IMG/VR virus record: IMGVR_UViG_3300037826_000110
Coordinates: 1 to 56,674 of that record
Strand: one strand, 5' to 3'
DNA from: a virus
Length of the DNA stretch: 56,674 nt
Shown here one piece after another: positions 19,211 through 42,749 of this stretch (position 1 is the first letter of the stretch; every line of letters begins with the position of its first letter). The notes beneath the pieces were generated by a model that saw only the letters and a list, made by a program, of their open reading frames with translations, was not told the origin of the DNA and made no database searches. Position numbers and translations under genes: made by a program.

Positions 19211-19948
19211 TCATGAGACGATCATAACCCTCTGCGTGCGCTTGACACGAATGAATAGATTCAGTCCCTTCTTGCTGCGGCGGATTTCTAGATGCTTACC
19301 CCATTTACTCTTGAGATAAGCTAGCTCGCGCTCGTTACGTTCACCGGAGCGCATGTGCGCGTTCCCTCCGGTGTTGTTAAAGCGCTGATGCATTATGGCG
19401 CAACGCTCGTCCACAAGCACGCAACGGTATTTTAGGAGTGCTTGGAGACAATAGTCGATATCCGCGCGCAGCTTCAACGAGGTGTCGTAGCGCAGCTCGC
19501 GTCCAATAATTCCAATCGCGCCCCCGACCCAGTTGTTAAGGGAAAATGGGTTCTGGGGGTGAAACTTGCGTACATCGCCACTGTGCTGTGAGAAACCAAA
19601 CACACAGGTCCCGAGGCCCCTGGCGATCCGGGCCGCGTTCTCAACCATTTGCAAAGCTACGTCAGGATCGACGACAGTCGCGGCGGCGGTGGTGCGTCCG
19701 GCGTTCATGCGCAGGTGGCTGACGTCGTCATCGACCATAAAGACGGTCTCCTCTGTGATATTATCCAGGATCCACTGTCGCAGGGGACCAATCCCCGCCA
19801 CGCTCGACGGGTGCGTGATAATTTCTGCATCCAGGACGGCATAGTCCTCCGCTTCGGCCTCATCTACGCACACGGCGGCCGAGGGGAACAGCTCAAGCGC
19901 CTTCCCACATAACGCTACTCTTCGTCGACTGGGGATGATGATGCGCAT
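19211..19948 (-). CDS. GT-A glycosyltransferase-like protein (TAGT-like)
   Basis: ATG 19948 (MRIIIPSRRRVALCGKAL) follows GGAGG by 10 bases and gives 245 aa. It has the nucleotide-sugar binding pattern of GT-A enzymes: an N-terminal IIIPSRRR strand, then RQWILDNITEETVFMVDDDVSHL with the DxD metal motif. A C-terminal domain holds KLRADIDYCLQALL. This resembles phage TET-associated glycosyltransferases that decorate modified DNA bases, which are often found beside ParB-like genes, as here. No TET or other base hydroxylase was seen, so the substrate could also be protein. Confidence 0.55.
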   Translation of the reverse strand: MRIIIPSRRRVALCGKALELFPSAAVCVDEAEAEDYAVLDAEIITHPSSVAGIGPLRQWILDNITEETVFMVDDDVSHLRMNAGRTTAAATVVDPDVALQMVENAARIARGLGTCVFGFSQHSGDVRKFHPQNPFSLNNWVGGAIGIIGRELRYDTSLKLRADIDYCLQALLKYRCVLVDERCAIMHQRFNNTGGNAHMRSGERNERELAYLKSKWGKHLEIRRSKKGLNLFIRVKRTQRVMIVS

Positions 19949-20670
19949 TGCTGTAAGACCTCCAAAAAGCGCGTGCCGTCCATCACGCGACATAACCCGA
20001 CTTTCCTCCGCAGATTGCCTTTGCTGGATTTATACGAAAAGGCACGCTCCCCGATGCCCAGTACCTCGATAGCCCGTGCCCAGTCCCAGGTGGTGCGAAA
20101 GACCAACATCACATAGTCGTAATGCTCGAAGGGTTGCAGTCCCATTTCGGGGATAGTAGCGTCGTCCGCTTCCTCAGCGATGGCCTGCTCCTCCGCGCTC
20201 AGCGCCTCGTACATCAGTTGATCAACCTCGCGCTGCTGGAAAAAGGCCACGATGTCCAGGCCCTCCTCGATATCAGCCGCGATCTGCCCGGCGTCCCAGG
20301 CTAGGTTGAGCTCGGAGGTGCGGTTATCGGCGTAGGCCAGGCTACGCGCTACCCCGCCGTCCTCCTCCAGATCCAGATCCTCACGCTGATGAACGACGAG
20401 GCCGTCGCCAGGCGTGCGCACGACGTAGATGGGCATGCCACCGAGGTCGCGTACCGTCTCCACGGTCTTGTTGCCAGAGACGACGCGCCCCTTGCGATCT
20501 GTCAGCACGGAACGCCCCGGGCCATAGCGGGCCAGGCTTTCACGCAAGGCCCACTGTCCACGACTGGTTCCCAGATTCGCATTGTGCTCATCGGAGTGCA
20601 AGTCGTCTAGCGAGGAGATCTCGGCGATCTCCTCTTCTAACGCTGTGACAAAGTCTTGTTCGTCGCTCAC
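19915..20670 (-). CDS. ParB/Srx-fold protein, phage type
   Basis: A 251-aa protein starting at GTG 20670 with GGAGG 8 bases upstream. The N-terminal domain (SLDDLHSDEHNANLGTSRG, then DRKGRVVSGNKTVETVRDLG, then NRTSELN) has the ParB-like fold pattern but lacks the GERRxRA CTP-binding box of true partition proteins. Such proteins act as nucleases or nucleotide-binding factors in phages. It overlaps the glycosyltransferase-like gene by 34 bases and is the first gene after leader L2. Confidence 0.65.
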   Translation of the reverse strand: MSDEQDFVTALEEEIAEISSLDDLHSDEHNANLGTSRGQWALRESLARYGPGRSVLTDRKGRVVSGNKTVETVRDLGGMPIYVVRTPGDGLVVHQREDLDLEEDGGVARSLAYADNRTSELNLAWDAGQIAADIEEGLDIVAFFQQREVDQLMYEALSAEEQAIAEEADDATIPEMGLQPFEHYDYVMLVFRTTWDWARAIEVLGIGERAFSYKSSKGNLRRKVGLCRVMDGTRFLEVLQQCASSSPVDEE

Positions 20671-22754: not shown

Positions 22755-22831
22755 TGACCTGCCTTATCAATGATCGGATGGTCAATCCCGATCAGACGCC
22801 CGGCCTAGAGGCCAGGCGTTTCGGCTATGTC
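22755..22831 (-). ncRNA. Type II hammerhead ribozyme-like RNA, copy 1 (RadC / RarA-like junction)
   Basis: Reading the minus strand: stem II strand GCC, GAAA core, stem III (10 pairs including one U-G, loop UCUA), GUC cleavage triplet (22797-22795), stem I UGAUCGG/CCGAUCA, core UUGAUAA, stem II strand GGC, then GGUCA, which can pair with UGACC in loop I. Predicted cut is between 22795 and 22794. The RadC stop codon overlaps its 5' end. Confidence 0.75.
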
Positions 22832-23538
22832 TCGAACCCCTTTCCCTGCTCGCGCAGGCTAATGTAACGGTTGTGGCCGATGACCATGTGATCCAGGACA
22901 TCCAGCTCCATCAGTTTCCCGACCTCCACTAATCTGCGGGTTAGCATAATGTCCTCCGGCGAGGGGTTAGGATCGCCAGAGGGATGATTGTGCGCGACGA
23001 TGATCGAAGCGCAGTTACGGCGAATCGCCCCCCGAAAAACCTCCGCTGTGCGGACCAGGGAAGTGTTGAGGCTCCCCTTATAGAGGATTTCCTTGTCGAT
23101 TACGCGATTGCGCGTGTCCAGATATAGGACCGCGAAGTTCTCTTGCTCGGCATCCCCGATGTAGGGAGTGAGGATGTGCGAGGCATCCGAAGGAGACCGG
23201 ATCTGTTCACGATCCGGCCCGGATTCCAAGGTCATGCGCACGCCCAGTTCCAGGGCCGCCATAAGGCGCGCGGCTTGTGAGGGACCAATGCCGTCGATGG
23301 CCGTCAATTGACTCTCCTCCGCCCGGCGCAAACCGTGCAACGATCCAAACTTAGCGACTAACTGATTGGCAATACTCAGGGCCTCGCCCCCCTGTACAAT
23401 TGCCGCTAGTAATTCCACCAAGTTCACGTACCGCACGCCTACCTCACGCACGCGGTTTACCGGTTTCTCGGACTCCGGTAAGTCGTCCACGCGCAATCCA
23501 GGCGGGGTATGTTGCAACATGCTCATTTGTGCTACCAT
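22825..23538 (-). CDS. radC: RadC-like JAB-domain protein
   Basis: A 237-aa RadC family protein. It has an N-terminal helix-hairpin-helix (LTAIDGIGPSQAARLMAALELG) and a C-terminal JAMM metalloprotease motif, HNHPSGDPNPSPED (H-x-H-x7-S-x2-D). ATG 23538 has GGAGGTGTAAGAGA upstream. RadC proteins are common on mobile elements and phages; the reaction is unproven, although the metal ligands are intact. It lies between ribozyme-like elements 1 and 2. Confidence 0.9.
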   Translation of the reverse strand: MVAQMSMLQHTPPGLRVDDLPESEKPVNRVREVGVRYVNLVELLAAIVQGGEALSIANQLVAKFGSLHGLRRAEESQLTAIDGIGPSQAARLMAALELGVRMTLESGPDREQIRSPSDASHILTPYIGDAEQENFAVLYLDTRNRVIDKEILYKGSLNTSLVRTAEVFRGAIRRNCASIIVAHNHPSGDPNPSPEDIMLTRRLVEVGKLMELDVLDHMVIGHNRYISLREQGKGFET

Positions 23539-23815: not shown

Positions 23816-24715
23816 CTACTGATAGGGGCACTCGCCCGGGATCAGGGGGCTAGGACCATTGGGGAAGGACACGATCTTGTGCTGCAATAGTCCGCGATAG
23901 ATCGTCCCCGCTATCCTTGCGGCCTCATCTTCGCCCGCGTCCACCAGATCCTTGATGTAGCGCTCCATCGCGCTGGCTACCGAGCGGGCCTTGCGCATCG
24001 AAGGAAGCTCGTCATCCACCGGAATCACCCGGTCCGGTCGCGCTTCCTCCTCCGCAGCGCGCACATCCTGGACCTTGGTCATAAAGGTGGCCATATCGAA
24101 CATCGCTTCCTGCGCCTGCTCTTCCAACAATCTCGCGCAGAGCTTGCGAAACTCTTTCAGGCGCGGGGTATCCACCTCCGCCAGATAACGCAGAGCAATG
24201 CGCTGCCGATTGGTATCCAGGTCGCGAAGCGCATACGCATATTTGATGCCCATCTGCCCGTCTTTGACTAATTTCTGAGCCTCGGGCACCGTATCCAAAA
24301 GCGCCAGTCGCAAGCGCACCCGCTGAGGACTCACGTTCGCAATCTTGGCGACCTGTTTGGCGTCCCAGCCAAATTTCTCCATCCGTTTTTGGTAGGCGCG
24401 CGCTTCCTCAATCGGATTCAGTTCGTTGCGTTGCACATTCTCCAAAAGCATGACGGAAGAGGCTTGCTGATCCGAAAGCGTGCGCACCAAGGCCGGAATG
24501 GTCTCGCGCTCCAGGAGGCCAAAGGCCCGCCAACGCCGTTCACCGGCTACCACCTGAAAGCGCTCCCCCACCGGTCGCAAGGTGATGGGCTGCGCGAGGC
24601 CGTGCTGCTTGATGCTGGCCGCCAGTTCCTGCAGGCTCTCTGTATCAAAGTCCTGGCGATCATTATCGCCGGGGTCAATTAGGACCATCCGTATATCCTG
24701 TATCTGCTCTTGCAT
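23816..24715 (-). CDS. parB: ParB/Spo0J-family partition-type protein
   Basis: I choose ATG 24715 (MQEQIQDIRMVLIDPG) because CACGGAGGTG precedes it; the longer frame would include ribozyme copy 3. The 299-aa product has the ParB CTP-binding box GERRWRA (58-64), the ENVQRNELNPIEEA segment (92-105) and a helix-turn-helix (WDAKQVAKIANVSPQRVRLR). True ParB clamps load on ~16-bp palindromes (parS) and spread. No ParA was found, so it may work with the ParM/ParR set, in gene control, or through the nine dispersed palindromes. Confidence 0.85.
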   Translation of the reverse strand: MQEQIQDIRMVLIDPGDNDRQDFDTESLQELAASIKQHGLAQPITLRPVGERFQVVAGERRWRAFGLLERETIPALVRTLSDQQASSVMLLENVQRNELNPIEEARAYQKRMEKFGWDAKQVAKIANVSPQRVRLRLALLDTVPEAQKLVKDGQMGIKYAYALRDLDTNRQRIALRYLAEVDTPRLKEFRKLCARLLEEQAQEAMFDMATFMTKVQDVRAAEEEARPDRVIPVDDELPSMRKARSVASAMERYIKDLVDAGEDEAARIAGTIYRGLLQHKIVSFPNGPSPLIPGECPYQ

Positions 24716-24737
24716 TCTCTCACACCTCCGTGGTTTA

Positions 24738-24811
24738 TGATCTGCCTTATCAATAATCGGGCGATCAATCCCGATTAGACGCCGGGGACTCCCGGCGTTT
24801 CGGCTATAACT
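24738..24811 (-). ncRNA. Type II hammerhead ribozyme-like RNA, copy 3 (54-aa gene / ParB junction)
   Basis: GCC, GAAA, stem III ACGCCGGG/CCCGGCGU, GUC (24780-24778), stem I UAAUCGGG/CCCGAUUA, UUGAUAA, GGC. Here loop I has UGAUC and the 3' tail has GAUCA: both sides of the pseudoknot changed together relative to the other copies (UGACC/GGUCA). Predicted cut is between 24778 and 24777. Confidence 0.8.
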
Positions 24812-24968
24812 CATGGCGTTGCGCACGTCCAAAAGCGCGCAATTCGTAGTATCCGATCACACATCCGCCCACCTCGATAGTGAAACGCTGCGCATCGCAA
24901 TACCACGCATAATCCTCAGCATCACGCACATCCTCAAAATACACGCCTTCCACATTATACAATTCCAT
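24804..24968 (-). CDS. Unknown 54-aa protein
   Basis: ATG 24968 with CACGGAGGTGTAAGA upstream, the same context as its neighbours. The 54-aa product begins MELYNVEGVYFEDVRDAEDY, is acidic with a CVIGYYELRAFG strand, and ends at a TAG inside the 5' edge of ribozyme-like element 3. No family is recognised. Confidence 0.65.
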   Translation of the reverse strand: MELYNVEGVYFEDVRDAEDYAWYCDAQRFTIEVGGCVIGYYELRAFGRAQRHEL

Positions 24969-28957: not shown

Positions 28958-29257
28958 CTAACCCGCCCCCGCGCATTGTCTTAAGGCTATCCGCAAGCGT
29001 TGATTCTCGCGCCAAAGTTCATCAACGCGATCACGGAGCACATCCACTTCGCCCAACTCCTCAAACTGCTCGCGCATCTCCCAGTCCTGCCCTCGCCACA
29101 CCCAATAGTGATCGTCAGATATGGCTTCTATCCCCCAGGTCTTCCCGTGTTTTTCTGTACGTTTTGGTTTGCCAACACTAACCATTGAGAAAACTATACC
29201 CGTTTCACGATGTCTCAAGTAATCAGCGTTTTCTAAATCATATGGATATTCACCCAT
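28958..29257 (-). CDS. Unknown 99-aa protein
   Basis: ATG 29257 with GGAGGTTTAAA upstream. The N-terminal part is Trp/Tyr-rich (DDHYWVWRGQDWEM) and the C-terminal ~35 residues form a short coiled coil (LRDRVDELWRENQRLRIALRQ). No family is recognised. It is the last gene after the ThiF-like gene in the ubiquitin-like cassette operon. Confidence 0.6.
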   Translation of the reverse strand: MGEYPYDLENADYLRHRETGIVFSMVSVGKPKRTEKHGKTWGIEAISDDHYWVWRGQDWEMREQFEELGEVDVLRDRVDELWRENQRLRIALRQCAGAG

Positions 29258-29277
29258 TTTAAACCTCCTTGCGTAAT

Positions 29278-30036
29278 TTAAGTTGTTATCCCAATACTTC
29301 GCGCACTGCCCGCCATCAAATCCAGATACGTCGCGTAGATATCCAGGTCGTGCGACATCACCAAGCGATACACGTACTGCGCGGCATACGTAGCCACCGC
29401 CTGATTGATCATCAAGCTCTGCGCATCCCGTATAGTCAGCTCCGCGCAGGACTCGGCCTCCGTCGCTGGCTGATCGGGAACCAAGAGCTCCGGATGCTGC
29501 ACGGTGGGGAGGGGAAGATCCAGACAGTGCCCGGCCTCGATGCTGGGCAATTTGCTGTTGGTCGTGTTCCCCAGTAGGACCTGACCGCTGGCCTCGTGGT
29601 TACCGCAGTCCAACCACCAGACGAGCCGCGAGGAATCGACGATGGCCTCGTGAATGGCCTTCCGGGCGGCAGCGTTATCCACCGCGCCCACGACCAGCGT
29701 GAACTGGTGACGCTTGGCGGTGATAAAGTCTGACTGGAATTTCTGCGGACGACACTGAATCCGCAGGCCGAAAGCCGTGCTGTACCGGCGTGTCAATGCG
29801 ACGGCCTTGTTACGTCCTATCTCGGCGGGGGCGAAGTTCTGCCGTCCGATGTTCTTTTCCTCCACGACGTCGGGATCGCAGAAGGACAACCGAACGTCTT
29901 TGCCCTGCGCGTGATAGGCCAGGCGCGCTAGGTGCAAAGCCAGGAATGAGCCGGTCCCTCCGCAACCCACCAGGAGGATATTGTACGCGGCGGGATCCCC
30001 GACTAGGACAGGGTAGCGTCTCTCCGGCCTATCCAC
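29278..30036 (-). CDS. ThiF/E1-like activating enzyme (PRTRC ThiF-like)
   Basis: GTG 30036 has GGGAGG 7 bases upstream and gives 252 aa. It has an adenylation Rossmann motif (ILLVGCGGTGSFLALHLARL), FCDPDVVEEKNIGRQNF and DCGNHEASGQVLLGN. The end is SCAELTIRDAQSLMINQAVA, close to the pattern of PRTRC-system ThiF proteins. E1-like enzymes adenylate the C-terminus of a ubiquitin-like protein. Neighbouring genes encode JAB, E2-like and ubiquitin-like proteins, so a full conjugation pathway is likely. Confidence 0.8.
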   Translation of the reverse strand: MDRPERRYPVLVGDPAAYNILLVGCGGTGSFLALHLARLAYHAQGKDVRLSFCDPDVVEEKNIGRQNFAPAEIGRNKAVALTRRYSTAFGLRIQCRPQKFQSDFITAKRHQFTLVVGAVDNAAARKAIHEAIVDSSRLVWWLDCGNHEASGQVLLGNTTNSKLPSIEAGHCLDLPLPTVQHPELLVPDQPATEAESCAELTIRDAQSLMINQAVATYAAQYVYRLVMSHDLDIYATYLDLMAGSARSIGITT

Positions 30037-30256
30037 GCCGCGCCTCCCGCTCGGCCTGCAATCGGGCACGCTCCTGATCTACTACGCGCCATAGGTCGCG
30101 GACCTCTTTCTGCAATGCGCGCGCCTGCACGGCCAACTCGTCGAAACGCTGGCGTATCTCATCATCGCGACCGCCAAGGCGAACGACGGAGCGAATGTAA
30201 TAATCCAACGTACCCAAATCTATGTACGGATACGTGTTGTCATCTGGGTTTTGCAT
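30029..30256 (-). CDS. Small coiled-coil protein
   Basis: A 75-aa protein. After a short N-terminal part (YPYIDLGTLDYYIRSVV) it is a continuous charged coiled coil to the end. The stop overlaps the ThiF start by 8 bases. It could be an adaptor for the E1/JAB proteins; no known family. Confidence 0.55.
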   Translation of the reverse strand: MQNPDDNTYPYIDLGTLDYYIRSVVRLGGRDDEIRQRFDELAVQARALQKEVRDLWRVVDQERARLQAEREARRG

Positions 30257-30264
30257 GGTTCCTC

Positions 30265-30882
30265 CTAAAACGGAATAGTGCGATTATGGACATCCTCAAA
30301 TGGCCATGCCCCGGTGAACAGTGTCTCAATAGCTACATTACCGTAGTCACCGTAGACACCCACCCGCAGACACATCTGCGGGCGCTCGTCGAAGATCCGC
30401 CCGATCACACCATAGAAACGCAAGCCTTGCTCGTCGCGGGTATCCTCGCTGGAAAAGAAAACGTTCATCTGGTGATGGCTGTGGATGTCGGCGATGATGT
30501 CCGCGTCATCGCCTCCCTCGTAGGTCAGGCGCGCACTGCCGGCCTGTTGCGACGGTCGCCACACGCTGACCAAGCCGTCACGCAGCACGAGGTGATACAG
30601 AACCTCACGCGGCCCCTCGCGGGCCACGCTGCGCGCGTTGACCAGGATCTGACGCAAGAGAATGTTTTGGATGGGGCTGAAGTCTAAGTCCACAAACGGC
30701 TCTAGCTTCGGCAGTCCAGCCACGCGACACGCCGCGACCTGAATGCAGGCGGTGAAGTGCCGCGCGCGGGCTAACTTGAAGATGCCATTGCCCGCGAGCA
30801 CGTAGGCGTAGGCTTTCCCCGACGACAAGCTCGGGGTATGGCCATTATGCATCAGATAATCTACGGGATTCGGTAACATCAT
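30265..30882 (-). CDS. JAB/JAMM isopeptidase (PRTRC protein A-like)
   Basis: About 205 aa, starting in the stop of the E2-like gene (ATGATG overlap); an ATG three codons earlier lacks a ribosome binding site. The JAMM motif is complete: HSHHQMNVFFSSED (H-x-H-x7-S-x2-D), followed by DTRDEQGLRFYGVIG, as in PRTRC system protein A. In eukaryotes and bacterial ubiquitin-like systems such peptidases trim or remove ubiquitin-like proteins; maturing the Ub-MazG fusion is a natural inference. Confidence 0.8.
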   Translation of the reverse strand: MMLPNPVDYLMHNGHTPSLSSGKAYAYVLAGNGIFKLARARHFTACIQVAACRVAGLPKLEPFVDLDFSPIQNILLRQILVNARSVAREGPREVLYHLVLRDGLVSVWRPSQQAGSARLTYEGGDDADIIADIHSHHQMNVFFSSEDTRDEQGLRFYGVIGRIFDERPQMCLRVGVYGDYGNVAIETLFTGAWPFEDVHNRTIPF

Positions 30883-31583
30883 GCCTCCCATAAGTGCCGA
30901 AGGGCCAGGTTACTATGTCTCAGGTCTTCAAGGGGATATTCATCCGCACCGACCACGACAGGATCGCGCCACATCGCGATGATGCTCTCCTCGTATTTCT
31001 TGGATTTGCCGTCTTCCAAGTCGTGATTGAACTGGCTAGCGAAGAACATTTCCGCAGCCTCACAAATCGTTTCCACCGTGCAAGCCGGGAACGGGACATC
31101 CCCCTGGCACACACGTCCGTCGCGCCAGATGTTTGGCGCGGGGAAATAGTACAGTGGTTCCCGTCCGGCTGCGGGGTAACGCCGGACCGCGAAGATCCTG
31201 TACGTGCGACCCTGCCCTACGAAAACGGCCGGTGGGAAGGGTACACGCATGTCCACCACTTCACCCTCATGGTACAGCTTCACCGTGCGCACCTGGGGAG
31301 GGCGATATATACCCAAACGCGGTTGTGCCCCCAGATCACAAAACAGGCAATTGCGGGGCAGCAACCCCGACACTATCGGCAGCCCGGCCATCGAGGCCGC
31401 CAGAGCATCCGGCGATACCTCGTAGCACTGCGCGACGTGCCCATGCTCAAAGCGCGTCATCACGATGGACTCGTCGTACAGGTCCAGGCGCATGCGCAGC
31501 GCCTGGCGTTGCTCTACGTCCACCCCGGTCCCTGCGAGACCCAAGGCAGATAGGTGTTCTATTTTTCCATTTTCTGGTTCCAT
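30879..31583 (-). CDS. E2-like protein (PRTRC protein B/Prok-E2_D-like)
   Basis: A 234-aa protein with GGAGTAAATAAA before ATG 31583. The middle and end match PRTRC protein B: PFPPAVFVGQGRTYRIFAV, YYFPAPNIWRDGRVCQGDVPFP and AEMFFASQFNHDL. The Cys in GRVCQG is the candidate catalytic cysteine of this E2-like family. Together with the JAB and ThiF genes it forms a ubiquitin-type relay. Confidence 0.75.
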   Translation of the reverse strand: MEPENGKIEHLSALGLAGTGVDVEQRQALRMRLDLYDESIVMTRFEHGHVAQCYEVSPDALAASMAGLPIVSGLLPRNCLFCDLGAQPRLGIYRPPQVRTVKLYHEGEVVDMRVPFPPAVFVGQGRTYRIFAVRRYPAAGREPLYYFPAPNIWRDGRVCQGDVPFPACTVETICEAAEMFFASQFNHDLEDGKSKKYEESIIAMWRDPVVVGADEYPLEDLRHSNLALRHLWEA

Positions 31584-31588
31584 TTTAT

Positions 31589-32473
31589 TTACTCCTCATA
31601 CGTTCGCTCTATCTGATACCGTCTGACGTCGTCAACCCACTCTTGCTCCACCAACGGCGGGGCGGGGGTACGATTGCGATAGTCCTCCTCCAGGCCGTCG
31701 AAGTAGCGCACCGCGTCCTCCACAGCGCGCCGAGGCTGTTCGTCGAAATACTCTTGCAGATCGCGACGTACAGGGACCCAGTGCTTGATCTCGCTGTAAG
31801 AGGTGGCCAAAAAGAGGATGTCGTGCAGATTGAATCTCGGCATCCCATAGTTCATACTGCCATACTCCTCAAAGTAGTAATCGCAGTAGTCAAACCACGG
31901 GTTGCCGGTTTCCTTGCGCACACACTGATACACCACGGCCAGGGCGCTGAAGGGCTGCGGCAGGGCCTCCAAATGCTCCACTGCCCATACCGCGTCGCTG
32001 GGCCAGGTGTACTGTCGCGGGGGGCGGATACCATGTGCCCCCCACCACTCTATGAGTCGCTCGCTGTACGAATCTACCCCCTCACAGACGTGGTTAATAA
32101 CGACGGCGATCATTAGGCAGGCCAGGGTGTCGAAGTTGCTGAAGTCCTCGACTTCCCACTCGATGCCCCACGCTGCGAAGGGAATCTCGTGCCAACCCTC
32201 CACCAGTGTCGGATGGTCGAACTCGCGCTCGTAGACCAGGTAATCGGCATACAAGCCGTTAAGCGGGAAGAACTCCTGATTGATACGAACCAGAAGCTCC
32301 TGCTCGGCAGCCTGCAAGCCCCCCAACACCGGGAGCTCATCGCCGAATAGCTCGCGCCACAGCTCGGCCATATTATGATACTCCTTATAGCCCCCCAGAC
32401 GGTCAGCGATCGCCCCGTAGGACGGCAGGCGATAGCGAGTCAAAGCCTGGACGACGGCTTGCAGAGAAATCAT
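31589..32473 (-). CDS. Unknown 294-aa protein of the ubiquitin-like cassette
   Basis: ATG 32473 overlaps the previous stop as ATGA. The product is acidic, Trp/Tyr-rich and mostly helical (YADYLVYEREFDHPTLVEGW, WPSDAVWAVEHLEALP). No motif is recognised. It sits in tight linkage just before the E2-like gene, which suggests a partner or target-binding role in the same pathway. Confidence 0.6.
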   Translation of the reverse strand: MISLQAVVQALTRYRLPSYGAIADRLGGYKEYHNMAELWRELFGDELPVLGGLQAAEQELLVRINQEFFPLNGLYADYLVYEREFDHPTLVEGWHEIPFAAWGIEWEVEDFSNFDTLACLMIAVVINHVCEGVDSYSERLIEWWGAHGIRPPRQYTWPSDAVWAVEHLEALPQPFSALAVVYQCVRKETGNPWFDYCDYYFEEYGSMNYGMPRFNLHDILFLATSYSEIKHWVPVRRDLQEYFDEQPRRAVEDAVRYFDGLEEDYRNRTPAPPLVEQEWVDDVRRYQIERTYEE

Positions 32474-32682
32474 GCTTCGCTGTCCAGGTCGAATAGCTCT
32501 GGCTGGCCCTGCCGTCGCATGATCCAGGCTTTCGGTATCGGTTGCGTGTGCCGACACTGTGGGAAGTTAGGGCAGCCCAAAAACTGAGAGTGGTTGTGGC
32601 GGTTGGTTTTGATGAGCAAGGGGACGTTGCACTCTGGGCAACGGAGTGCGGTGGGCTGGTTGTTCTCAAATAGCGGTTCCAT
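32470..32682 (-). CDS. Topoisomerase-type zinc ribbon protein
   Basis: ATG 32682 (MEPLFENNQPTALRCPEC) with GGAGAGGGCG upstream gives 70 aa. It has one zf-C4 topoisomerase-type ribbon, CPECNVPLLIKTNRHN then FLGCPNFPQCRHTQPIP, followed by a short tail. In topoisomerase I this module binds single-stranded DNA; here it stands alone. Confidence 0.7.
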   Translation of the reverse strand: MEPLFENNQPTALRCPECNVPLLIKTNRHNHSQFLGCPNFPQCRHTQPIPKAWIMRRQGQPELFDLDSEA

Positions 32683-33145
32683 CGCCCTCTCCAAAATGCT
32701 CGGCGTGCAGGCGTGACACATCCTGCTCCAAATTGTAACGCAGATCCTCGATGCGCCGCTGACACTCATAGTCCGCATCATCGACCACGCCGGCGCGCTC
32801 CTCCAGGATTGCATACAGATTTAGGTTATAAAGCCGGCGCAAGTCCTCGTACTCTCTGAGATACAAGAGTACGTCCAACGCCTTCCCCAAAAGGGCTGAC
32901 GCATCGACCGCCAGATGCTCCACATTCGTACCGGTTCCTAGATTGGCCAAAGCCTGCATGTCCGTGATCACCTGGTTGATCACGGCCTCCGGTTCAGCCT
33001 CGGTGCTGGCGATCACCGGACCCAACGCTTCAATGGCGTGCCGTGCCATCTGCCCAATCTCTGGCGGTGGGTTGGTGGCCATAGTGATCACGGCCATTTT
33101 CTGGCTGGCCTGGCCCACAAGGTCTGAGAGCCTATGCCGATCCAT
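32666..33145 (-). CDS. Unknown 159-aa helical protein
   Basis: Acidic, all-helical protein (EIGQMARHAIEALGPVIAST, LYLREYEDLRRLYNLN), overlapping both neighbours by 14-17 bases. No known domain or membrane segment; part of the ubiquitin-like cassette operon. Confidence 0.55.
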   Translation of the reverse strand: MDRHRLSDLVGQASQKMAVITMATNPPPEIGQMARHAIEALGPVIASTEAEPEAVINQVITDMQALANLGTGTNVEHLAVDASALLGKALDVLLYLREYEDLRRLYNLNLYAILEERAGVVDDADYECQRRIEDLRYNLEQDVSRLHAEHFGEGDGTAI

Positions 33146-33434
33146 TCAGCACCCCCAGAGCCTTCAGTAATAGCGCCTCGGCCTCGATCACGTTGGTCTC
33201 GATACACGTACCCTCGCCGTGAATCTCCATCGCCGCGAGGCCGTTCAACGCCTCGCGTACCGCAACGGTGATCTCGCCGTCGCTCATCGACGCCCGCCCG
33301 CCATTCAACAGTGGGGATAGTGACGCGGTTACGTCCGCCGCCATGCCCCACAGAATATAGCTGGGACTCACATGCAGCAGTGGCCCCACCCTTAAATTTG
33401 CTCTGATCAACAATGCCTCTACTTGTTGCTCCAT
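33132..33434 (-). CDS. Unknown 100-aa helical protein
   Basis: A 100-aa protein (MEQQVEALLIRANLRVG) overlapping the next gene by 14 bases; GGAGAACACT precedes ATG 33434. The C-terminal half (AVREALNGLAAMEIH, EAEALLLKALGVLNG) resembles a stretch of its 159-aa neighbour (VDASALLGKALDVL), so the two may be distant paralogues. Confidence 0.5.
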   Translation of the reverse strand: MEQQVEALLIRANLRVGPLLHVSPSYILWGMAADVTASLSPLLNGGRASMSDGEITVAVREALNGLAAMEIHGEGTCIETNVIEAEALLLKALGVLNGSA

Positions 33435-33443
33435 AGTGTTCTC

Positions 33444-33677
33444 CTAAAATCCTTCTGGCACCCGCTTACCGGGCACCGGGTCCAAAGCTTCCAGACGCTC
33501 ACGAAACTTCTCCACGGCTTCAATATGTGCGTAGAGGTCCAGGAGCGCCCGTTCTATCTCCGCCTGGCGCTGGGCGACATCCGCCCCGGCCTCCAGGTCC
33601 AGCAGGAGCCGGACGGCGGCGAGCTCCAACGGGGGAACCTCCGCCATCCGCTCCGCAAGCTCACGCGCCGTCGTCAT
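33444..33677 (-). CDS. Small helical protein
   Basis: ATG 33677 (MTTARELAERMAEVPPLE) lies inside the end of the Ub-MazG gene, so it is probably translationally coupled; the longer upstream frame is only that gene's shadow. The 77-aa product is helical and charged (RQAEIERALLDLYAHIEAVEKF). No known family. Confidence 0.5.
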   Translation of the reverse strand: MTTARELAERMAEVPPLELAAVRLLLDLEAGADVAQRQAEIERALLDLYAHIEAVEKFRERLEALDPVPGKRVPEGF

Positions 33678-34113
33678 CCGGGATAACCGGGCCGTGCTGC
33701 TCGAGGGCCGCGACGCAGAGAGCGGCCATTTTGACAATGCGATACCGTGCTCTGCTAAGTTCTTCAGCGCCAATATCTTGTGAAGCATGCCCCCATTCCT
33801 CAGCGATATAATCCAGCCACACGCTGGGACCATGGCGTTTTCCGTCAATCTCACCGTTTAACGTCATGCGTTCTTGCACGTTGCAGATTGCCGCTAGCAC
33901 ATTGGCGCGGCTGACCAACGCACCCTTGGTCCCCGCACGCTTGACGAAGGTAACCACCTTGTTACCTTCGTCGTCCTCGCTCTCCTCGACGCTGGCGTTA
34001 GCCAGCTCCGGAAAGTATTGGCGCAGGTGATCCTGCATCTGCTGCGTTGTAAGCTCGTCTTCCTCGTCCCGATATTCATAGTCCCCGTGGGGATATTTGT
34101 AAATCGTTGCCAT
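33661..34113 (-). CDS. Ubiquitin-like (PRTRC protein C-like) domain fused to MazG-like domain
   Basis: A 150-aa protein with GGAGGAATTGAGAG upstream. Residues 1-64 match the beta-grasp Prok_Ub family of PRTRC protein C (QYFPELANASVEESEDD, VVTFVKRAGTKG). In that family GTKG is normally the C-terminus. Here ~86 residues follow (VLAAICNVQERMTLNGE, PSVWLDYIAEEWGHASQDI, KMAALCVAALE), resembling a MazG-type NTP pyrophosphohydrolase domain with EEWGH in place of EExGE. Cleavage after GTKG by the JAB peptidase would free a ubiquitin-like protein; that step is inferred. Confidence 0.7.
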   Translation of the reverse strand: MATIYKYPHGDYEYRDEEDELTTQQMQDHLRQYFPELANASVEESEDDEGNKVVTFVKRAGTKGALVSRANVLAAICNVQERMTLNGEIDGKRHGPSVWLDYIAEEWGHASQDIGAEELSRARYRIVKMAALCVAALEQHGPVIPDDDGA

Positions 34114-34144
34114 CTCTCAATTCCTCCGTTGTGTGTTATGCGGA

Positions 34145-35614
34145 TCACGCCGGGGCGCGATCTTCCTCAGATTCCTGCTCAAATATATCAATGCCTATTT
34201 CCTCGCGGATCATTCTAGCCATCACCGAGGCCAGGTGCCCTAGGTCACTCTTGTCTATGGCCCCGGGCCGTCCGGGCTTTCCCACCGAGACGGTGACCGC
34301 CAGATCCTCCGGGCTTTCCCCATTCTGGGGTACGTCGATGCGGGCCGTGAGAATAATTTGCGGCTTGGGGGGAGGCGGAGGGGGCACCGCTGGCCTTGAT
34401 GATGCCGGCGGCGGCGATTGGGGCTCACTCAGCGTCCCCACCGCAACCCCACACCGCGCGTTATTCGCAATCCCCGCATCCTGCGCCGCGTCCACCGGCG
34501 CGCTGGCTATGTGCTCCGGAGCCGATAACTCATGCTCTTCCGGCTGCGGATTGCCGGCGCGTTCCCAGCAATCGGGGCAGATGTTGATGCCCGCGAAGCG
34601 GTACCAATCGCGCTCTTTGTCGTTGGCGACCTCGGTACCGCAGGCGCGGCAGCGGGTCCAGAACGTCGGGCGGTGCGTTTTCCACCCGGCGTGCTGCTCG
34701 TACATGCGCTTGGCCAACGCTGGTCCTTCGACCTGCTTCTCGAAGGTCGTGCTCTTGAGCTCAAAGCACGTCCGCCAAGAGCAGCGCAACTCCCGACCGA
34801 TCTTTGTCGCATACCGGCATCCCGCGCAGGCATGCATGATGCCGTTGCCGGGGACCTGGGGTTTCATCTCTGGCTCCCAGTCCATGGCCCACGGTGCACC
34901 ATCGAGGGAGGCCGTCTCCGTCTCGATGTGGCGCTTGACGGCCATCTCCACGTCGACCACGCTGCGCTCATGGCCCAGGAGACGCATGTACGTGGGCTTT
35001 TCCTCACCAAGGGCCACCAGGGGTAGCAGTGCCCGGGCGTGCCGTTCGCCCAGACCCCGCGCCACCTCATCCTGGATGAAGTCGGGGAGTTGCAGGAGGC
35101 GCAGTTTGTTGGCTACGGTGCTCTGACTGAGGCCCCAGCGGTTGCCGATCTCCGCCTGGGTCCAGCCAAATTTTTCCCCCGCCATCTGCATCATGCGCGC
35201 CTGCTCGATAGCGTTGTTGTCCTCGCGCTCTTGATTTTCCTGGAAGGCGATGTCGGCCATGGCCTCGTCGTCCAGTGCCTTGAGGTCGACGGGGAACGTG
35301 GCGTATGTGGTGTCGCTCTGCGCGCTGAAGGTCTCGTGAATCAGTCGGAAGGCGCGCAGACGCCGATGGCCGGCGGCCAGTTGGATCTCCAGCCCTTCAC
35401 GACGGCCGTCCTCGATCCGCGCCACGGCCTCGGCGGGATCCAGGACCTCGCCGTTCAATAGCGCCCGCGCCGGGGGGACGTGGATTAGGCCGCTGGTTTC
35501 GGGAAGCTCGTGGCGCATTTGTAAAATTGAGTTCTCCAGGTCGGCGGTGTAGTACTTCATCCGCGCCTGGAATGGATTGTCACTGATCATCTTATTTGCT
35601 ACTCTGGTAATCAT
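34145..35614 (-). CDS. ParB-family protein with zinc-binding C-terminus (PRTRC ParB-like)
   Basis: A 489-aa protein with GGAGGCAAAACCG before ATG 35614. It has a ParB CTPase-type box GHRRLRA (82-88), ENQEREDNNAIEQARMM and a helix-turn-helix (WTQAEIGNRWGLSQSTVANKL). A Cys-rich part follows (CAGCRYATKIGRELRC, then CRACGTEVAND, then CPDCWERAG), probably two zinc sites, and a Pro-rich region. ParB next to ThiF/E2/JAB/Ub-like genes defines PRTRC cassettes. A palindrome copy lies 23 bases upstream. Confidence 0.8.
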   Translation of the reverse strand: MITRVANKMISDNPFQARMKYYTADLENSILQMRHELPETSGLIHVPPARALLNGEVLDPAEAVARIEDGRREGLEIQLAAGHRRLRAFRLIHETFSAQSDTTYATFPVDLKALDDEAMADIAFQENQEREDNNAIEQARMMQMAGEKFGWTQAEIGNRWGLSQSTVANKLRLLQLPDFIQDEVARGLGERHARALLPLVALGEEKPTYMRLLGHERSVVDVEMAVKRHIETETASLDGAPWAMDWEPEMKPQVPGNGIMHACAGCRYATKIGRELRCSWRTCFELKSTTFEKQVEGPALAKRMYEQHAGWKTHRPTFWTRCRACGTEVANDKERDWYRFAGINICPDCWERAGNPQPEEHELSAPEHIASAPVDAAQDAGIANNARCGVAVGTLSEPQSPPPASSRPAVPPPPPPKPQIILTARIDVPQNGESPEDLAVTVSVGKPGRPGAIDKSDLGHLASVMARMIREEIGIDIFEQESEEDRAPA

Positions 35615-39694: not shown

Positions 39695-41143
39695 ATGAAA
39701 ATCACAGAAGCAACACCGCAGCAAAGAAACAACGCTCCCTTTGTGACGCATATGACTGCCAGGAACATCGGCAAGGGGTACGCCGAGACCCTAATACTAA
39801 TCGCCTACTATCTCCCGGACGGCGACGTCCTAGAGGGAACTAGCGAAGAATTCGGTGCAGTCTTCGACATTCACGAACGCAGCTTCAGGAATCATGTCAA
39901 GGCCCTATCACGAGCCGGATGCCTACTTTACACGAAACCAGAATACGGGCTATACAAAATCATAAGAATTTCACAGACAGAAGAGGAACTAAACACCCTC
40001 GTCGATTGCTGGAATTTCATTCCAGATGAGATCAAAAAGCGCGATGCGTTGGATTTTGTCACGTCTGCTTTCCTGTCGAAATGGAAAGAATTTTCCGAAA
40101 GTGGGGGGGAATGGAAAGAATTTTCCACCTTAGAGGAAGAGGCACCGGAAGCAAAACGGAAAGAATTTTCCGAAACTCCGCAAAATGGAAGAAATTTTCC
40201 AAGTTCAGACGAAGAGGAGCAAGGCGAGGAATGGAAAGAATTTTCCGAAAGTGGGGGAGAATGGAAAGAATTTTCCAACTCGGATGGCGAAAGACGGAAA
40301 GAATTTTCCGTAACCCCCATTGAACGGAAAAAAATTTCCGAAAGTGGGGGGAAACGGAAAGAATTTTCCGAAAGCGATCCCCCTGTTGTTGTTATTAATC
40401 ATGATCATGTCTTTGAGAGACAATTTTCTAAAGATAAAAAACAACAACAGCAAGCATCTGAGCCACAAAACGGCGATTCAGCGCAGGGGTTTGCGTCGAA
40501 CGATTTTTCCGAACGTCAAAAGCTTGCCTTGAATGCTCTGCGTTCCGTGCGTGTGGGTCGCAATGCACAGCGTGAATTCATACGCGACCATGATCCGCAG
40601 CGCATCCTAGACGTCGTTGCGGCGGCGAAGGTTGACGCAACCGTCAAAAACAAAGCGGGGTATGTGTGCAAGGCCCTCCGCGAAGGGTGGGAGATCGCGG
40701 TGCCGAAATCCGAGCCCGAGAAACGTCAGGAAAAATGGGCCGGATGGGAACAACAAAACGCCCAAGCCACCGCGCGCCTGCATCAAGCGGTCGCCGCTGC
40801 CGCCGAGCAATCCGGTAACGGCAACGGGGGCGAATCTGCCAAGATCTGGCGCGGCGTCCTGGGTGAACTGGAGCTCCAGATGACCCGCGCGACCTTCGAC
40901 ACCTGGCTGCGGGATACAAACTGCCTGGGTCGGGAGGATAACGGCGACGGTGAGACGCTGATCATCGGCGTGAAGAACGGCTACGCCGTGGAATGGCTAG
41001 AACATCGGCTGTACACCGTCATCCAACGCACACTCCACCGCGTCGTGGGGCAGCACACAGAGGCGCGCTTCGTTGTCTGGGATGAGGAAGCGCAGGAAGT
41101 CACAGAGCCGGCCTTGGAGCCGGTCACAGGAGGAGTAGGGTGA
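39695..41143 (+). CDS. Replication initiator: winged helix, iteron-encoding region, DnaA domain I-like C-terminus
   Basis: A 482-aa protein. Residues ~20-100 form a winged helix (AETLILIAYYLPDGDVLEG, FDIHERSFRNHVKALSRAG) as in phage/plasmid initiators. Residues ~128-226 are a repetitive WKEFSESGGE-type linker whose DNA is a set of iterons. Residues ~380-465 resemble DnaA domain I (KIWRGVLGELELQMTRATFD, LIIGVKNGYAVEWLEHRLY). DnaA domain I recruits the replicative helicase, so this protein probably binds its own gene and loads host DnaB. No phage polymerase or helicase was found in the genome. Confidence 0.75.
   Translation: MKITEATPQQRNNAPFVTHMTARNIGKGYAETLILIAYYLPDGDVLEGTSEEFGAVFDIHERSFRNHVKALSRAGCLLYTKPEYGLYKIIRISQTEEELNTLVDCWNFIPDEIKKRDALDFVTSAFLSKWKEFSESGGEWKEFSTLEEEAPEAKRKEFSETPQNGRNFPSSDEEEQGEEWKEFSESGGEWKEFSNSDGERRKEFSVTPIERKKISESGGKRKEFSESDPPVVVINHDHVFERQFSKDKKQQQQASEPQNGDSAQGFASNDFSERQKLALNALRSVRVGRNAQREFIRDHDPQRILDVVAAAKVDATVKNKAGYVCKALREGWEIAVPKSEPEKRQEKWAGWEQQNAQATARLHQAVAAAAEQSGNGNGGESAKIWRGVLGELELQMTRATFDTWLRDTNCLGREDNGDGETLIIGVKNGYAVEWLEHRLYTVIQRTLHRVVGQHTEARFVVWDEEAQEVTEPALEPVTGGVG
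40083..40369 (+). repeat. Nine iterons inside the rep gene (candidate replication origin)
   Basis: Copies of GGAAAGAATTTTCC begin at 40083, 40113, 40158, 40187 (variant), 40233, 40263, 40296, 40326 (variant) and 40356. Spacing is mostly 29-33 bases or about 45, roughly whole helical turns. An AT-rich stretch follows (40384-40455). Iterons within the initiator gene followed by AT-rich DNA mirror the lambda ori inside gene O. Confidence 0.75.
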
Positions 41144-41394: not shown

Positions 41395-41754
41395 ATGCCC
41401 CAGACCCCGCAACGCCGCGCGCGCTATCCCGCCGACTGGCGCATCATCGCCACCAGCGTCAAGGACCAAGCCGCCTGGTGCTGCGAGCACTGCGGACGGC
41501 CCCACGATCCTCTCAACGGTCACCCGCTCACCGTCCACCACCTGGACAACACGCCAGAGAACAACCAGTGGTACAACCTGGTGGCGTTGTGCCTGCCGTG
41601 CCATGCCAAGATCGCGGCGCATTACACACCGGGGCAGCGGACGTTTGATTTCTACGAGCCCCCGGCATGGATGGCCGAGCGGGGTCTGGTACGCGGGGCG
41701 CGGCAGATGGCGTTTTGGTTTTATGGACCTGGGGAATTATTTCCCAGGAAATAA
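41395..41754 (+). CDS. HNH endonuclease
   Basis: A 119-aa protein with WCCEHCGRP, LTVHHLDNTPENNQWYNLV and ALCLPCHAKI, the complete HNH signature with its structural zinc cysteines. The end (LFPRK) is encoded by a palindrome copy. HNH enzymes often lie near phage terminase genes; here it sits in the plasmid operon, so a homing or plasmid-processing nick is also possible. Confidence 0.85.
   Translation: MPQTPQRRARYPADWRIIATSVKDQAAWCCEHCGRPHDPLNGHPLTVHHLDNTPENNQWYNLVALCLPCHAKIAAHYTPGQRTFDFYEPPAWMAERGLVRGARQMAFWFYGPGELFPRK
41738..41753. repeat. Dispersed palindrome, copy 7 of 9
   Basis: TATTTCCCAGGAAATA, centre CA, with ATT/AAT flanks on both sides. It overlaps the last codons of the HNH gene, 25 bases before the ParM start. 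Confidence 0.85.
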
Positions 41755-41777
41755 TCACACAACACGGAGGAATTGAG

Positions 41778-42749
41778 ATGCAATTAGGCATAGACTTAGG
41801 TTACAACGAAGTAAAATCGGTATCGGACAAGGAACACCAGCGCTTCCCAGCGGTCATAGGCACGCCAGAGGAAGCCTCGTTCTCACTGAACGGCGATCAG
41901 AGCATGATCTTGCTCAAGCCGGCGCACGTCTCTCTGGGGATGGGGGCCGTGATGCACTCGCGTTTCAATAATCGCCGCGAGTCACGGAACTGGATTGAGA
42001 CGGCCGACTATCACCACCTGTTCTGTGGCGCGCTCACACAGCACACCACAGCCACACAGATCAGTGTGGACCTGGTGACCGGCTTACCCATCGCCTTCTA
42101 CGGCGATAAGGGACGTCTGGCCGGGATCTTGACCGGAGAGCACAGCGTCCAGGTCCAGGGGCGCACGGCGCAGCTCTTTAGGGTCAATCACGTGCGCGTG
42201 ATCCCGCAGCCGTTCGGAAGCTTGCTCAGCGTAGTTCTGGATGGCCGGGGGCAGATCGTGGACAATGACCTGGCCCTATCGCGGGTGGGCGTGATCGACG
42301 TCGGAGGCAAGACCACCAACCTCCTCAGCGTCCACAAGCTGACGGAGCTGGACCGTGAGTCCACCAGCGTCAGCGCTGGGGGGTGGCGCTTAGTGCGTGC
42401 AGTTCGGCAGTGGCTGGCGGCCAACAAGCCCGGCCTCGACGAAATGCGCGATCACGAACTGGCTGAGGCAATCAAGGTGCAGCGCATTAACTGCGCTGGC
42501 GAGCCGGTGAGCGAATTTCCGAGCATCGTCAGCGGCTACGCCGATAGCCTGGCTCAAGAAATCATCGCCACCGCCACACAACTGTGGAACGGTGGGGCGC
42601 TCCTGGACAAGATCCTGGTCACCGGGGGCGGAGCCCTATTACTGGGGGAGGCTATCCGCACCCGCTGGCCACGGGCGGAGATTGTTCCGTCGCCGGTATA
42701 CGCGAATGCCATCGGCTATCACCGCCTGGCTAAGCGGTTGTACGGGTAG
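41778..42749 (+). CDS. parM: ParM/Alp-type actin-like ATPase
   Basis: ATG 41778 (MQLGIDLGYNEVKSV) has GGAGG 7 bases upstream; the longer frame is rejected. The 323-aa product has phosphate 1 (GIDLGYNEVKS), phosphate 2 (GVIDVGGKTTNLLSV) and the adenosine motif (ILVTGGGALLLGEAI) of actin-fold ATPases. ParM filaments push plasmid copies apart by binding ParR-parC complexes. The candidate parC repeats and ParR follow directly. Confidence 0.85.
   Translation: MQLGIDLGYNEVKSVSDKEHQRFPAVIGTPEEASFSLNGDQSMILLKPAHVSLGMGAVMHSRFNNRRESRNWIETADYHHLFCGALTQHTTATQISVDLVTGLPIAFYGDKGRLAGILTGEHSVQVQGRTAQLFRVNHVRVIPQPFGSLLSVVLDGRGQIVDNDLALSRVGVIDVGGKTTNLLSVHKLTELDRESTSVSAGGWRLVRAVRQWLAANKPGLDEMRDHELAEAIKVQRINCAGEPVSEFPSIVSGYADSLAQEIIATATQLWNGGALLDKILVTGGGALLLGEAIRTRWPRAEIVPSPVYANAIGYHRLAKRLYG

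Follow-up and report, generated by a model that had tools for sequence, protein, structure and literature searches.

IMG/VR record IMGVR_UViG_3300037826_000110, an entire viral record of 56,674 bases analysed here at its full length (the window), carries a minus-strand operon, 35614 to 29278, that encodes the parts of a ubiquitin-like conjugation system: a ubiquitin-like protein (Ub), a ThiF/E1-like activating enzyme, an E2-like conjugating enzyme and a JAMM metalloprotease, headed by a ParB-family protein. Its family matches and gene order mark this cassette as a divergent form of the PRTRC or type 6d operon. We propose a mechanism in which the initial Ub product would be a precursor, its domain closing with Lys63-Gly64 and an unrelated tail following, and in which the JAMM protease would cleave after Gly64 to expose the glycine. 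ThiF would then adenylate the exposed glycine and hand Ub on as a thioester to the E2, which would hold it on Cys159 and transfer it to target proteins. Two further conserved proteins, here termed D and F', occur alongside Ub and E2 in most copies and are likely target-selecting partners. We assign this conjugation pathway, precursor processing included, a probability of roughly three in four. PRTRC and type 6d operons have been on record since 2006, and our literature search returned no function assigned to them, the top matches for PRTRC being largely to the plasmid name pRtrCIAT899.

Searches with profiles derived from the phage proteins show the order Ub-F'-E2-JAMM-ThiF at dozens of loci, among them phages, plasmids and bacterial genomes, which excludes a chance grouping. 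Within the window the spacing between cassette genes is only -17 to +31 nucleotides, which argues for one operon. A sequence-only reading of this DNA had placed a ParB, a ubiquitin-like protein, an E2, a JAMM peptidase and a ThiF together in such an operon; all five are confirmed in their places on the minus strand, although the list was incomplete in that the conserved D and F' genes had been missed. In operon order the features are:

34145..35614, minus strand: ParB-family protein, 489 residues, the cassette's first gene (HTH_ParB, parB_part)
33922..34113, minus strand: Ub-like domain, residues 1-64, with the end KRAGTKG (Prok_Ub, AlphaFold)
33661..33921, minus strand: C-terminal tail of the putative Ub precursor, residues 65-150, predicted three-helix (AlphaFold)
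33444..33677, minus strand: D, small helical domain, 77 residues from ATG, separate gene (own profile)
33132..33434, minus strand: o100, unknown, insertion in the window cassette (without family)
32666..33145, minus strand: o159, unknown, insertion in the window cassette (without family)
32470..32682, minus strand: topoisomerase-type C4 zinc ribbon protein, likely start 32682 (Zn_ribbon_Top1, 43.1 bits)
31589..32473, minus strand: F', 294 residues from ATG, at the position of PRTRC F (own profile)
30879..31583, minus strand: E2-like conjugating enzyme, family D, predicted catalytic Cys159 (Prok-E2_D)
30265..30882, minus strand: JAMM/JAB metalloprotease, PRTRC A-like (Prok-JAB, PRTRC_A)
30029..30256, minus strand: o75, short open reading frame (ORF) between JAMM and ThiF (open frame, cassette spacing)
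29278..30036, minus strand: ThiF/E1-like adenylating enzyme, 252 residues (PRTRC_ThiF)

The longest frame of F' has a GTG start at 32557 and that of the zinc ribbon gene begins at 32814. Neither o100 nor o159 has a family match or a relative among loci L002-L016, the L labels denoting the numbered relative loci or contigs compared with the window.

ThiF, E2, JAMM, Ub and ParB all pass their Pfam gathering scores, Prok-JAB and Prok_Ub barely so; the PRTRC cut-offs of NCBIfam are passed by ThiF alone, with A (JAMM), B (E2), C (Ub) and ParB matching below theirs. ThiF scores 63.5 bits against Pfam ThiF (cut-off 28.1) and 172.9 bits against PRTRC_ThiF (TIGR03736, cut-off 144.75), and G24xGGxG29, Asp54, Arg65-Gln66, Lys77, Asp120, Cys144 and Cys197 are invariant in 15 sequences. 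The E2 matches Prok-E2_D at 75.1 bits (cut-off 25) and PRTRC_B at 68.6 bits (cut-off 131.45). Its motif, PN-x4-G-x-V-C, keeps the spacing of the classical eukaryotic HPN-x4-G-x-I-C exactly but lacks the histidine. The motif cysteine, Cys159, is invariant in a 55-sequence alignment and kept in 99 percent of a wider 125 rows. For JAMM the scores are 25.6 bits against Prok-JAB (cut-off 25) and 52.5 against PRTRC_A (cut-off 101.8), and its motif, HSH-x7-S-x2-D, is kept in 15 of 15 aligned sequences. The E2 cysteine and the HxHx7SxxD signature singled out by the sequence-only reading are therefore real features. A second JAB-fold protein of the phage, RadC-family (143 bits), lies at window positions 22825-23538.

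Neither Ub nor the E2 was placed in an unrelated fold. The E2 model (predicted local distance difference test, pLDDT, 88.5) has E2 or ubiquitin E2 variant (UEV) proteins as its five best structural matches among 996 aligned chains, at the low Z of 3.1-4.4. A sequence search of the PDB for solved relatives of E2, ThiF and F' gave none that was convincing.

The two additional partners recur with the core genes. The F' profile matches 114 ORFs, nearly all immediately upstream of E2, and a hidden Markov model built from the window D matches about 90 ORFs that adjoin Ub or are fused behind it. In many loci the tail of Ub is domain D itself, while elsewhere, as in the window, D is a separate gene directly behind Ub. 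The identification of F' with PRTRC F was rejected, two profile comparisons showing no similarity to PRTRC_F (hhalign probability 0.1 percent), as was that of D with PRTRC E, since the D profile gives the plasmid E 1.9 bits.

The Lys-Gly boundary and the tails behind it

The protein read from the sequence as a ubiquitin-like protein of 150 residues holds its Ub domain in residues 1-64, the remainder being tail. It scores 26.9 bits against Prok_Ub (cut-off 25) and 26.7 against PRTRC_C (cut-off 45.95). The AlphaFold model has a beta-beta-alpha-beta-beta arrangement over residues 3-57 at a pLDDT of about 90, reaches its pLDDT minimum at residues 64-66 and continues into three helices. Its best structural matches are mostly beta-grasp proteins, namely protein L/G, MoaD, ubiquitin and FAT10 (Z 4.5-5.5 over 52-60 residues). 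In 42 aligned sequences the sole invariant columns are Lys63 and Gly64, the predicted mature C-terminus of Ub. The tail of the window Ub has no significant family or phage match; a by-eye idea that it is a MazG/NTP pyrophosphohydrolase met phage matches of E 0.2-0.4 at best and none in Pfam, and is not claimed.

Presence of a tail follows presence of the protease. Among the 102 loci having Ub, E2 and ThiF, sequence continues after Lys-Gly in 72 of the 80 with JAMM and in 0 of the 22 without (Fisher p 5e-16, relatedness uncorrected). The available flanks of 21 of these 22 JAMM-less loci hold no ORF with a JAMM motif, the exception being L173 (53 codons only). The tails themselves are exchanged at a fixed point. 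L015 and L070 have Ubs with 98 percent protein and 89 percent DNA identity, and the DNA likeness breaks off at the Gly codon and returns at the end of the ORF, leaving unrelated tails of 81 and 89 residues; DNA similarity between L042 and L045 likewise breaks at the Gly codon. Several tails match free-standing phage protein families: that of L007 matches phrog_29525 and is 40 percent identical to a protein of the Caudoviricetes, and those of L158 and L045 match phrog_1273.

In other carriers the sequence behind Lys-Gly is a further Ub. Tandem units joined at Lys-Gly number two in L079, three in Vibrio phage D69 (OZ195729) and four in Bacillus phage vB_BauM_KLEB27-3 (OM634661). The D69 units are divergent, lie in one ORF (L187:1412-2203) with linkers that differ and each end in TGTKG. 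The KLEB27-3 gene gp199, annotated as hypothetical (172930-173637 of OM634661, equal to L190:5931-6638), encodes four near-identical head-to-tail copies that each end in GVKG, with a tail of 7 residues; this layout resembles that of eukaryotic polyubiquitin.

The simplest reading of unrelated tails swapped at the Gly codon is that the junction is cut and the sequence behind it is free to vary. Taken with the co-variation of tail and protease, this suggests that JAMM most likely matures a Ub precursor. The precursor evidence, chiefly the tail swap and the four-copy Ub, gives JAMM a concrete predicted reaction and cut site. Iyer, Burroughs and Aravind predicted in 2006 that the JAB proteins of operons of this kind both process Ub and strip it from targets (PMC1779556), and the comparative evidence here supports the processing role for this family.

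Carriers and host

The E2 alignment contained no stretch sufficiently conserved for scanning viral contigs. Since a scan of these contigs with the single E2 sequence gave no relative, ThiF was chosen for the search, and its profile recovered relatives from viral contigs and genome contigs alike. A ThiF tree of 126 rows includes, in addition to the window, 52 IMG/VR contigs that have both ThiF and E2, and the window falls in a group of 18 rows (98*) made up of 14 viral and 4 Chloroflexota members. Of the 52 viral records searched, 17 yielded a large terminase, a count to be read in the light of many records being fragments and of a family that need not catch every terminase. Between phage copies the genes are under purifying selection, with ratios of nonsynonymous to synonymous change of about 0.04-0.13 (L049/L051) and 0.10-0.23 (L041/L045). 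Like operons also lie on 150-450 kb plasmids of Burkholderia and cyanobacteria.

The head protein of the window is common only to L008 (63 percent), L038 (57 percent) and one Anaerolineae metagenome-assembled genome, which indicates that the virion modules of the carriers are unrelated; the large terminase or major head protein of the window was accordingly dropped as a marker of all carriers. As in the window, a tyrosine integrase match is absent from the records of L008 and L038. Because the Anaerolineae genome carries the closest genomic cassette (ThiF 59 percent) as well as a related head protein (63 percent), the host of the phage is, on this sequence comparison, probably a member of the Chloroflexota class Anaerolineae.

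The cassette is also present in cultured phages of Burkholderia, Vibrio and Bacillus. In Burkholderia phage BgVeeders33 (OK665841) a C-F-B-A-ThiF operon at L186:4797-8720, with an ORF of 61 residues between C and F, exceeds the PRTRC cut-offs with all five proteins, while its annotation offers only hypothetical proteins and a 'dinucleotide-utilizing enzyme'. Its Ub has a 62-residue tail behind GTKG and its ThiF groups with that of a Burkholderia plasmid (100*); it has a true F and no D or F' match. The publication on BgVeeders33 that was searched does not mention PRTRC or ThiF. D69 and KLEB27-3 carry Ub, E2, JAMM and ThiF in the same order, in KLEB27-3 among nucleotidase, RNA ligase and polynucleotide kinase genes. 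A cassette so far known mainly from large plasmids is thus carried by many phages as a complete kit of tag, activating, carrier and trimming proteins, and since cultured phages have it, its function can be put to a direct test by removing genes and assaying plaques.

Two other arrangements were seen in viral contigs. L071, L072, L073 and L078 form a separate branch of the ThiF tree and have the order E2, ThiF and a Ub ending in DKG, with no JAMM. L090, L094 and L101 have a long JAMM-containing ORF (about 630 residues) followed by two ThiF genes, L090 with an additional E2-containing ORF of 856 residues; this arrangement is possibly another type of ubiquitin-like system.

The window has a 127-bp direct terminal repeat, which marks the record as a circular assembly and hence a complete circular phage genome, and its virion genes comprise tape measure, major head protein, head protease, portal and large terminase. 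The cassette ParB scores 71.3 bits against HTH_ParB (cut-off 22.6), 71.7 against parB_part, above the cut-off, and 29.7 against PRTRC_parB (cut-off 278.6). A second, canonical ParB (ParB_N, 88 bits) lies apart from it at 23816-24832. An actin-like protein of the ParM type (41667-42749) and one that bears the N-terminal domain of DnaA (39695-41143) fit a plasmid-like prophage, and the window has no tyrosine integrase match. The name 'phage-plasmid' given in the sequence-only reading is plausible on the two ParBs, the ParM-type protein and the lack of the integrase, though short of proven. Elsewhere in the window, positions 19211-19993 match the beta-glucosyl-HMC-alpha-glucosyltransferase family phrog_842 (55.6 bits); the substrate here may be modified DNA or some other glycan.

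Alternative readings and possible benefit

Several points weigh against the pathway or against the benefit that we attach to it. The fold match of the E2 is weak, with a best Z of 4.4 and no Foldseek match below E 0.2; the structural matches are consistent with the expected fold, yet alone would be weak evidence. An E3 and a substrate are not known for the cassette. Only some 40 percent of cassettes place a ParB immediately before Ub, and in the cultured phages the ParB profile detected none next to the cassette; these points weaken a role in partition only. The ThiF tree shows 5 changes of JAMM and 8 of the tail, so that the Fisher value does not amount to an independent test; the supported independent contrasts number 3, about 2 of them in agreement and none in opposition, and significance is unreachable. 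Lastly, 8 of the 80 JAMM cassettes have a tail-less Ub, and there JAMM must act otherwise, such as in deconjugation. Those eight cassettes and the few independent changes would also suit a protease that mainly strips Ub from substrates, its link with the tail being one of shared ancestry only. We consider this improbable, given that tail swaps break precisely at the Gly codon, that tandem Ub requires Lys-Gly cuts to give usable single modifiers and that no JAMM-less cassette has a tail. Less probable still, and in our view barely tenable, is a sulfur relay of the ThiS/MoaD kind in which ThiF and Ub act with no protein conjugated. ThiF and MoeB models do match the E1, and MoaD ranks with the best structural hits to the Ub model (Z 5.2 over 58 residues), but a dedicated E2 with a conserved catalytic cysteine is present in nearly all copies, the cassette includes no sulfur or cofactor gene, and the window Ub terminates in KG, where ThiS and MoaD terminate in GG.

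What conjugation would achieve is a separate matter. Modification of a host or element protein may serve the upkeep of the element during infection or in an extrachromosomal state. The presence of ParB directly upstream of Ub in 40 of the 94 cassettes having over 2 kb of upstream sequence favours such a link with replicon upkeep, which we advance as the main benefit only tentatively. The large cultured carriers favour a role in infection, and the tagging of host proteins to disable defence or redirect machinery during infection would account for cassettes that, in the Vibrio and Bacillus phages, have no recognised adjoining ParB and, in the latter, sit among nucleotide and RNA-repair genes. 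This explanation leaves both the frequent ParB link and the operons on the large Burkholderia and cyanobacterial plasmids unexplained, and we regard it as unlikely, if well worth keeping in view. Slightly more doubtful is a competitive role during lysogeny, in which the cassette would tag the virion or other proteins of competitors and stop their assembly. The anti-phage Bil system is built of similar parts, Ub, E1, E2 and JAMM (PMC13373217, PMC11354881), and Iyer et al. proposed in 2006 that such mobile operons protect against invading replicons (PMC1779556). However, nothing directly supports the use against competitors that the sequence-only reading raised: a defence-model search of the cassette gave no BilA, BilB or BilC and no fitting model, only generic E1 matches (including BilD), and anti-phage defence would be less useful to large cultured phages that carry the cassette amid RNA-repair and nucleotide genes. 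A broader proposal is that a Ub system both complete and working is encoded by phages from several lineages unrelated to one another, with JAMM-matured precursors or polyubiquitin, swapped tails and host or phage targets, that controls infection or the plasmid-like prophage state; we would place this somewhat below even odds.

Relation to known systems

The sequence-only reading matched the gene set to PRTRC, and family hits, gene order and predicted folds bear this out in part. The PRTRC models (NCBIfam TIGR03734-TIGR03742) are hypothetical equivalogs, and plasmids such as Burkholderia ambifaria pBMC401 (NC_010553) carry ParB, C (Ub), F, B (E2), A (JAMM) and ThiF. Profiles from the phage proteins recover the plasmid A, B, C, ThiF and ParB, and the window keeps the order ParB-(E)-C-F-B-A-ThiF with F' in place of F. 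Among the cassette proteins scanned there was no match to TIGR03741 or TIGR03742, the models for E and F. The window cassette further differs from PRTRC in its D domain, its long Ub tail and the scores of A, B, C and ParB below cut-off, and, unlike plasmid PRTRC, the variant lies on phages and on genomes of Chloroflexota, Cyanobacteriota and Acidobacteriota.

The type 6d operon, whose carriers include cyanobacteria, combines a separate Ub-like protein with a C-terminal Gly, a JAB, an E1, an E2 without the HPN histidine and an extra conserved protein (PMC1779556). The window likewise has Ub-like, JAB, E1 and E2-D as separate neighbouring genes, and the C-terminal Gly of Ub is conserved in its family. 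Type 6d is also described as having a His, absolutely conserved, that follows the Cys of the E2, and a strictly conserved Arg and Trp in the N-terminal part of JAB (PMC1779556). By contrast, the cassette is phage-borne, 125 aligned E2 rows have no conserved His downstream of Cys159, and 15 aligned JAMM proteins have no invariant N-terminal Arg or Trp.

Bil (BilABCD) similarly has a Ub-like protein, E1, E2 and JAMM, its JAMM deubiquitinase processing a Ub precursor (PMC11354881). Its BilA has two Ub-like domains and its BilD two adenylation domains, whereas the window has one Ub domain and a single-domain ThiF; the E1 and E2 that type II CBASS fuses as Cap2 are separate genes here. Gene order and Pfam families are common to the cassette and to PRTRC and type 6d systems, and it would work in the same way. 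The sub-threshold PRTRC scores, the missing E and F and the two divergent 6d features make the cassette a variant rather than a strict PRTRC member. If conjugation does take place, it would constitute a bacterial case of a ubiquitin-like cascade encoded by a virus, its tandem precursors arranged as in eukaryotic polyubiquitin.

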